Below are positions 18,878 through 64,000 of a DNA stretch of 64,000 nt, in pieces (position 1 is the first letter of the stretch; every line of letters begins with the position of its first letter). The stretch is taken from NCBI GenBank assembly GCA_902614235.1, contig CACMKG010000002.1, forward strand, positions 62,001 through 126,000, read 5' to 3'. Both the position numbers and the translations under genes were made by a program. A model generated the notes under the pieces. That model worked only from the letters and a program-made list of their open reading frames with translations, did not search any database and had not been told where the DNA came from. Source of the DNA: an uncultured SAR86 cluster bacterium. GTDB taxonomy: Bacteria; Pseudomonadota; Gammaproteobacteria; Magnimaribacterales; AG-339-G14.

Positions 18878-19028
18878 TTATTTATCGAAGTTGAAGGGGT
18901 CTAGCGGGTTATCTAGTGCAAGCGAGTTACCCTTTCCTTGCATGTGGCGAAATTTCTTTCGTCTTCTCACCCTTCTTCTTCTACTCCTTAGCTTCTTTCT
19001 TTCCGTCTCGAGTTGTAAAGCTTCCCAC
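18878..19028 (-). pseudogene. Possible tiny Arg-rich protein lacking an in-frame start
   Basis: Between trpS and the GST gene a minus-strand frame codes for 49 residues: a helix-like EALQLETERKKL, an Arg/Lys run (RSRRRRVRRRKKFRH) and an acidic-ended tail NPLDPFNFDK. It stops right before a good terminator. Its first codon after an upstream TAG is TGG, not a start. A GTG at 19028, nine bases after AAGG, is one base out of frame; removing one G from GTGGG would give GTG GAA GCT and restore the gene. So this is either a sequence error, a programmed frameshift, a dead gene, or a 21-residue peptide from ATG 18943. Not in the ORF track. GC is higher than the flanks. Confidence 0.45.
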
Positions 19029-19148
19029 TAAGTTATGCCTTTATGTTAGAGAAAATAAAAAGAATTTACAACACCTAATTTGACGTTTTTTAGACTAAGT
19101 TTGAATTAAAAAAAAATTTTTTATTATTAAAGGATTTTAAAAATTAAA
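19029..19148. other. AT-rich intergenic stretch
   Basis: About 120 bp between the GST stop and the Arg-rich frame. It is very AT-rich with long A/T runs. It presumably holds the promoter for the minus-strand small transcript, but no clear -35/-10 pair stands out. Confidence 0.4.
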
Positions 19149-58518: not shown

Positions 58519-59223
58519 TTAAGCTTCTGAAGTCTGTGAGTCAGCTACTGCTGCAGCCCATATGGCTAAACCAAATGCAGTTTTATTAATTAAATCTGCA
58601 AGGTTATAAATAATATTTAAAGAATTAGCATCGACACCGCCAGGTGAAAAATATCCAATGGCATAGCCTAAAGGATAAATTGCCCAACCTACAGTAACAA
58701 TCCATTTGATTGTGTTAAATGCTTGTTGACTAGCAGCGTTTCCACTTGAAGCGTTGGCCGCGGCTGTTTCTCCAAAGAAAATTTCATAAATTATGTATAG
58801 CCAAGCGACCATACCAATTACGAAACCAACAGTGACATTCATTAATCCCGTTTCGCCTAAATAACCAAAAACTAGCATCACTATGGAAGCTATTAAAAGC
58901 TTCCAGAATATAGCTGCTGAAATTGCAGTTACTGCAGCAATAACCAGATAAAACTCGATTATTTGAAGTGGTACTGTTATTAACCAGTCAATGTAACGAT
59001 AAACTGTTGGAGTATCTCCCATTACTACCCACACTTCTCTCATGTATAGGTAATGCCAGAAAGCTACACCAGTTACTAATCCAGCAACAGTCATAGATGT
59101 TTTCCACTTGCCCTTTACATCAGATCTTTCAACAAAGAAAAATACTGTTGAAGCAAGCATAATTGCTGTTGCTAACCAAAAAGAAATACCAACATAATCA
59201 TTGGTAGCTAAAATTGATTCCAT
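58519..59223 (-). CDS. Proteorhodopsin, blue-absorbing proton-pump type
   Basis: 234-aa, seven-helix retinal protein acting as a light-driven proton pump. Proton-path residues match green proteorhodopsin: His57 (H75), Asp79 (D97) as Schiff-base counterion, Thr83, Glu90 (E108) as donor, and Lys214 in ADLINKTAFG for retinal. The tuning residue at GPR position 105 is Gln (TVPLQIIEF), the blue-type. There is no signal peptide ahead of helix A, unlike green proteorhodopsin. A GGGAGG site is 4-5 bases before the ATG. It has a 98-bp 5' gap. No blh or crt gene is here. Confidence 0.97.
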   Translation of the reverse strand: MESILATNDYVGISFWLATAIMLASTVFFFVERSDVKGKWKTSMTVAGLVTGVAFWHYLYMREVWVVMGDTPTVYRYIDWLITVPLQIIEFYLVIAAVTAISAAIFWKLLIASIVMLVFGYLGETGLMNVTVGFVIGMVAWLYIIYEIFFGETAAANASSGNAASQQAFNTIKWIVTVGWAIYPLGYAIGYFSPGGVDANSLNIIYNLADLINKTAFGLAIWAAAVADSQTSEA

Positions 59224-63387: not shown

Positions 63388-63618
63388 TTGTAAAAAAAGT
63401 CTCTTAACTTTATAATCGCACTGCAATCGTTCATTCCCTGCACTATTTTAATGCAAGGAACGGAAGTAGGAAGATAGGAAAACCTCTTTCTTTTTTAAAG
63501 AAAGGCAAGCAAGTACCGATAAGGGAACGAGACCGAATATCTACCGAAGGAACGCGTTGAGAAGGGTGTGCATTTTAGGATGCATGTACGAAATCGAAAC
63601 GAAAACTGGAGGCACGAT
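63388..63618 (+). promoter_or_regulatory. Promoter and long structured leader of the YRGxK protein
   Basis: A near-consensus promoter TTGTAA (63388-63393)-17 bp-TATAAT (63411-63416) predicts a start near 63423, leaving a leader of about 195 nt. It holds several hairpin candidates: TTCC.TGCA/TGCA.GGAA (around 63434-63462), CCTCTTTCTTT/AAAGAAAGG (around 63482-63506) and GCAT/ATGC near 63570-63584. GC content is raised. GGAGG (63608-63612) precedes ATG 63619 by six bases. No ORF of note lies inside. Confidence 0.6.
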
Positions 63619-63783
63619 ATGACTACTTACAGAGGTATCAAAGTTACTCCTGAAAATATCGCTAGAGATGAAAAATCTCCTAAAGCTGGTATTTACAGAG
63701 GTACAAAGCACGATGCTGTTAAAAGTGAAAAGTCTAACACGTCAGGTGAAGGAATTTACCGTGGTGTTAAACACGTAGCTTAA
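63619..63783 (+). CDS. Small YRGxK-repeat protein (DUF4278-like)
   Basis: 54-aa protein. The track starts at 63568, but ATG 63619 has a GGAGG six bases before it and a start there gives MTTYRGIKVTPEN. The motif Y-R-G-x-K occurs three times (TYRGIK, IYRGTK, IYRGVK) spaced by ~21-23 residues, with Lys/Ser-rich linkers. DUF4278 proteins carry this motif; the biological role is unknown. It is strongly expressed-looking: near-consensus promoter, long leader and immediate terminator. Confidence 0.72.
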   Translation: MTTYRGIKVTPENIARDEKSPKAGIYRGTKHDAVKSEKSNTSGEGIYRGVKHVA

Positions 63784-63798
63784 TTATTAATGGCTTGA

Positions 63799-63826
63799 AA
63801 AAGGGAGACTCTGTCTCCCTTTTTTA
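63799..63826 (+). terminator. Terminator after the YRGxK gene
   Basis: AAGGGAGAC-TCT-GTCTCCCTT followed by T5, 17 nt after the stop codon. Confidence 0.9.
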
Positions 63827-63830
63827 TAGA

Positions 63831-63862
63831 AAAAAGGCAGATCTTTCGATCTGCCTTTTTAT
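63831..63862. terminator. Terminator between YRGxK gene and amt
   Basis: AAAAAGGCAGATC-TTTC-GATCTGCCTTTTT: an 8-bp stem with A5/T5 flanks, usable both ways. Read leftward it ends the ammonium transporter gene. Confidence 0.88.
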
Positions 63863-63876
63863 TGGGGGGGAGAATT

Positions 63877-64000
63877 TTACTCTGAAAACTCAGGGTAAGC
63901 TGAAACTCCAACTTCTGAAGCATCCATACCTTCCATTTCGTCTTCCACTGTAGGACGAAGTCCCATAATAGCTTTAATGACAAGAAGAGTTGCTCCTGCA
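63877..64000 (-). CDS. amt: Ammonium transporter Amt, C-terminal end (partial)
   Basis: The last 40 codons of a minus-strand gene run off the window edge. The residues LLVIKAIMGLRPTVEDEMEGMDASEVGVSAYPEF match the cytoplasmic C-terminal tail of Amt/Rh channels, where the G-L-R-...-E..G.D motif regulates gating. The ORF track lists a shadow frame over this position instead. The transport core and any glnK partner would lie beyond 64000. Confidence 0.8.
   Translation of the reverse strand, partial: AGATLLVIKAIMGLRPTVEDEMEGMDASEVGVSAYPEFSE

Follow-up and report, generated by a model that had tools for sequence, protein, structure and literature searches.

The window, a stretch of 64,000 nucleotides from an uncultured SAR86 cluster bacterium (contig CACMKG010000002.1, positions 62,001 to 126,000), ends with a small gene on the + strand that encodes a 54-aa YRG-repeat protein, preceded by a GC-richer, non-coding leader of about 195 nt (63423-63618, + strand) and followed by the end of an ammonium transporter gene. 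The reading frame of the small gene was confirmed; its YRG motifs begin at residues 4, 26 and 47. Elsewhere in the window, an IMES-5 RNA, a marine environmental RNA of unknown function, is located at 18886-19033 (- strand, 130.8 bits), and a rhodopsin gene (PF01036) at 58519-59223 (- strand) fits a proteorhodopsin-bearing SAR86 genome. The features of the locus are as follows.

63388..63416, + strand: promoter-like site TTGTAA-17 nt-TATAAT, with a -10 position common to most SAR86 relatives
63426..63558, + strand: glutamine riboswitch aptamer (RF01739, type 1 or glnA), 42.0 bits against a cut-off of 35
63428..63432, + strand: helix P1, 5′ strand CGUUC (3′ strand at 63550-63554), invariant part of the RF01739 core
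63434..63460, + strand: helix P2, all five counted pairs changed on both sides
63461..63468, + strand: aptamer core CGGAAGUA (J2/3), invariant in 40 sequences
63469..63476, + strand: helix P3, 5′ strand (3′ strand at 63538-63545), with G-C/A-U and U-A/C-G exchanges
63477..63537, + strand: P3 domain, an insertion that ordinary glutamine aptamers do not have, holding P4 and P5
63486..63504, + strand: hairpin P4, six of eight pairs changed on both sides
63513..63528, + strand: hairpin P5 (GUA-stem-GAAC), with C-G to A-U and C-G to G-C changes and a stem of variable length
63555..63558, + strand: helix P7, 5′ strand CGUU directly 3′ of P1 (3′ strand AACG at 63598-63601)
63566..63587, + strand: hairpin P6, inside P7, four pairs changed on both sides
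63608..63612, + strand: Shine-Dalgarno sequence GGAGG within the conserved GAAAAC(U/C)GGAGG, invariant in 40 sequences
63619..63783, + strand: gene for a 54-aa DUF4278-like protein with three YRG motifs (open reading frame and profile match)
63800..63862, no strand assigned: a pair of hairpins, each side with T runs, that are probably bidirectional terminators between this gene and amtB, as read from the sequence
63877..63999, - strand: C-terminal end of the ammonium transporter gene amtB, convergent on the YRG gene

The initial annotation described a near-consensus promoter upstream of a long, GC-richer leader with several candidate hairpins. The promoter-like site is present, but matches to its pattern are at chance level (six seen in the region, 5.0 expected). 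Because a -10-like hexamer recurs 7-13 nt 5′ of the aptamer in most SAR86 leaders, transcription is likely to start near 63423, about 195 nt upstream of the start codon at 63619 rather than close to it. The GC content of the leader (0.43-0.45) does exceed that of the upstream sequence (0.22-0.38). The leader was rejected as coding sequence, since its lengths in relatives are spread evenly modulo 3 and 36 of 40 copies have stops in all frames. A terminator scan detected no terminator-like site in the leader, nor did it report the hairpins at 63800..63862. Folding energy gives no sign of the hairpins (z = 0.38; 134 of 200 shuffled sequences fold as well); as minimum free energy offered no support, the structure was derived from homology and covariation, which do reveal them.

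The only curated Rfam match at the leader is the type 1 glutamine riboswitch, RF01739, with 73 nt inserted in helix P3 where the model has about six positions between the P3 strands; a short P3 is usual but is no criterion of the model. The type 2 riboswitch, RF01704 (Downstream-peptide RNA), does not match the window. The three-way junction of P1, P2 and P3 is present with its segments CGGAAGUA and GAAGGAACGC, both invariant in an alignment of 40 sequences (26 from the SAR86 order and 14 viral), and PII and amtB genes adjoin the riboswitch, an association with nitrogen assimilation. All 14 further enlarged leaders tested score at least 35 bits with RF01739, although a faster whole-genome search with the same model missed or under-scored several enlarged copies, including that of the window. 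The initial suggestion of a ligand-controlled leader is supported by a glutamine aptamer core lying inside a leader that is conserved, with covariation, in relatives.

Over the 40 sequences, 95.2% of the cells in the seven helices hold standard pairs, and at 22 pairs both partners have changed. No shuffled alignment out of 500 reached as high a value, in a control that ignores relatedness and evaluates a structure hand-drawn on the same alignment; when partners were slid by one to three columns, pairing fell to 36-48%. The result is unchanged when P1, P2 and the outer pairs of P3 are left out. P1 never varies in the alignment and for that reason cannot be confirmed by covariation. P7 by itself, with exchanges of G-C/U-A/A-U at one pair and U-A/A-U at another, has 14 double-change cells at these two pairs and exceeds all shuffles in pairing, cells and score, though not in the counts of pairs and types. 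From the RNA core to the Shine-Dalgarno sequence, the window is 87-94% identical to other SAR86 genera, while the proteins are 50-71% identical. The inserted P3 domain is a conserved RNA domain in its own right, with conserved segments GAAAACCUC, AGC-AGUA and GAGACCGA. The domain alone has no Rfam match, and the idea that it is a second copy of the glutamine aptamer was rejected on that ground; an AGUA-stem-GAA motif common to the domain and the glutamine aptamer is only suggestive of such an origin. The 3′ strand of P7 (AACG) lies just 5′ of the Shine-Dalgarno region. A pseudoknot between an invariant CCUC and GGAGG is possible, a pairing that never varies. The 3′ strand of P3 was considered as an anti-Shine-Dalgarno sequence and rejected: its own pairs score -5.14, pairs permuted between lineages score -5.42, and there is no compensation.

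A pattern describing this RNA of about 185 nt, with at most one mismatch, was found in 42 genomes out of the 203 in the SAR86 order; 33 of these belong to the family of the window (40 genomes), six to family f2 and three to f3. A leader pattern has 37 exact matches among 84,980 species genomes, of which 35 are named SAR86 and two, named only as Gammaproteobacteria, are probably G011 and G033, members of the family of the window. In a class sample of 369 genomes, a search for the enlarged form outside the order returned the genome of the window and G008, together with a weak match in an f4 relative that has ordinary aptamers and a candidate match of 25.8 bits in G549. The leader precedes a YRG gene at all 30 protein loci read and at seven more loci of genus g4. 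The PII gene lies about 70 bases beyond amtB, outside the window and 1.4 kb from the YRG gene. Of 23 genomes compared, 20 have the YRG gene no more than 12.5 kb from a PII gene; as many of these genomes are close relatives, this amounts to a handful of independent arrangements. In g4 the YRG gene lies 3′ of PII-amtB, in the same orientation; in g3 the two are divergent and separated by about 2.1 kb; the distance is about 12.5 kb in g2 and 4.7 kb in the f3 genome G044; in f2 the gene is distant from PII-amtB or on a separate contig. GlnD, the glutamine sensor of other proteobacteria, was not found in the genome of the window, nor in eight genomes of the same family (completeness 64-97%); two genomes of f2 and one of f3 do have it. 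The enlarged riboswitch and GlnD are not mutually exclusive, because G043 carries both.

The pattern also occurs in 36 marine viral contigs (L138-L173), all with a YRG reading frame behind the RNA, one of which (L162) is truncated by the end of its contig. Those contigs that were read further have T4-like structural genes, and two portal proteins are nearest to those of OM43 phages, SAR11 phages and the unassigned phage C48C1. No psbA gene was found in the seven viral records tested, which may be incomplete. Many viral copies have, about 20 nt 5′ of P1, the sequence TATAAATA, which resembles the T4 late promoter. A similar insertion in the P5 loop (GGGUCAAUA...CC; loci L140, L144, L158 and L204) is common to viral copies and one genome of the SAR86 order (G176), which hints at exchange between viruses and the SAR86 order. 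DNA and protein BLAST searches of cultured phage records found no relatives; a match of 15.9 bits in phage C48C1 was rejected, as it overlaps a gene and has no core.

Ordinary glutamine aptamers, often in tandem, were also noted in the SAR86 order (L001-L030) before glutamine synthetase and glutamate synthase genes, as well as before genes for an ATP-grasp-like protein and, near amtB, a porin-like one; these gene identities were read by eye from translations, without profiles. In two genomes, G095 and G062 (loci L088 and L089), two ordinary aptamers in tandem stand 5′ of a YRG gene and are followed by a similar platform of P6, P7 and GGAGG, comprising a hairpin and ACGA(A/G)AACUGGAGG. These loci resemble known tandem glnA riboswitches, whereas the locus of the window has a single enlarged aptamer in their place. 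This exchange on a similar platform is the best argument that the enlarged RNA senses glutamine: either form of aptamer can stand before a gene and platform of this kind.

The YRG repeat had been described as known only as a domain of unknown function. A likeness to DUF4278 (PF14105) stands, at 20.0 bits for the protein of the window, below the Pfam gathering score of 25.3, and 28 of 29 relatives match at E values up to 0.1 (best 1.1e-6). The word "only" is incomplete: DUF4278 accounts for the N-terminal part of IF17, a factor that inactivates glutamine synthetase, and the glutamine riboswitches of cyanobacteria stand mainly before DUF4278 genes (PMC6316151). No related solved structure was found for the YRG protein.

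The preferred reading, with a probability of about 0.68, is that the leader is a type 1 (glnA) glutamine riboswitch with an enlarged, conserved P3 domain that exerts glutamine-ON translational control over a DUF4278-like protein in SAR86. Glutamine would bind at the junction of P1, P2 and P3 and stabilise P1, and P7, adjoining P1, would set the state of the region just 5′ of the Shine-Dalgarno sequence; high glutamine, a sign of nitrogen excess, would then turn translation on, and the YRG protein would restrain nitrogen assimilation by binding a partner, for example PII, AmtB or glutamine synthetase. The likely role of the P3 domain is to tune or stabilise the aptamer. Control is placed at translation because the leader has a strong Shine-Dalgarno sequence and no terminator-like site. 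When the model helices are enforced, the mean pairing of the Shine-Dalgarno sequence over 40 sequences drops from 0.53 in free folds to 0.38, a weak signal in the ON direction; modelled access is mixed among individual sequences, a point in favour of an OFF switch, but that polarity is improbable given that both type 1 and type 2 riboswitches 5′ of DUF4278 genes in cyanobacteria are ON switches activated by glutamine (PMC6316151).

The invariant unpaired segments of the P3 domain (GAAAACCUC, AGUA and GAGACCGA) look like a binding pocket and go beyond the needs of a stabilising stem. They speak for an alternative in which the RNA keeps its glutamine core but through the enlarged domain senses a second or different ligand (such as another nitrogen metabolite) or acts as a two-input switch. 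This appears unlikely: no position of the glutamine core has changed, and ordinary aptamers in tandem can replace the enlarged RNA on a similar platform. Slightly less unlikely is that the P3 domain is a second sensing or regulatory module nested in the glutamine aptamer, which would make a two-input nitrogen switch in SAR86 and marine phages. A leader that has lost glutamine binding and is instead bound by a protein, for example as an autoregulatory site of the YRG protein, would fit an RNA that is more conserved than the protein and accompanies it in viral contigs; every copy tested nevertheless has an intact Rfam glutamine core, making this very unlikely. Least credible is an RNA thermometer, the temperature-controlled leader that the initial annotation had also proposed: a structured leader and a nearby Shine-Dalgarno sequence are all that it can claim, against a folding energy no better than that of shuffles, invariant unpaired segments and a known ligand-binding core, and no finding points to temperature.

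The glnA motif was described in PMC2864571, and a 2018 review considered glutamine riboswitches to be "restricted but common to cyanobacteria", with associations to glutamine synthetase, PII and ammonium transporter genes only in environmental sequences of uncultured strains (PMC6316151). It is plausible that SAR86 is the source of some of those sequences. In the literature library searched, no text mentions a "glutamine riboswitch" together with SAR86; an earlier mention of large P3 variants is possible. In this major order of heterotrophic marine bacteria, glutamine riboswitches occur widely, also ahead of the genes for glutamine synthetase and glutamate synthase, and one form has acquired a large conserved domain. 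In the genomes of this abundant oceanic group in which GlnD was not detected, RNA could serve as the glutamine sensor, as it does in cyanobacteria. The same unit of RNA and protein in T4-like phages suggests an action of phages on the nitrogen status of heterotrophs.

The closest known system is the type 1 glutamine riboswitch (glnA RNA, RF01739) of the gifB 5′ UTR of Synechocystis, which has the same core, the same layout of P1, P2 and P3 and a DUF4278-type gene on its 3′ side. In contrast, P3 of the SAR86 form bears a conserved, covarying domain with P4 and P5, the RNA has its own 3′ platform (P6 and P7), and the carriers of the enlarged form are heterotrophic SAR86 and T4-like phages. The type 2 riboswitch of marine picocyanobacteria likewise regulates very small DUF4278-type proteins, but is the RNA for which the window has no match. 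IF17 is a small protein with a DUF4278 N-terminus, which the YRG protein resembles weakly (below the cut-off); IF7 and IF17 bind and inhibit glutamine synthetase, an activity that is putative in the YRG protein. PirA, a small PII-binding protein (PMC8092223), is a cyanobacterial regulator of nitrogen assimilation to which the YRG protein, encoded beside PII-amtB, is likened by description and not by sequence; PirA binds PII and relieves the activation of NAGK, and the genome of the window has PII, binding of which by the YRG protein is putative. Finally, a glutamine riboswitch has been described in a T4-like marine phage of a heterotroph, Methylophilales phage Melnitz (PMC9004378), where it was reported with ssrA/tmRNA, whereas the viral copies described here precede YRG genes and have the enlarged P3 domain.
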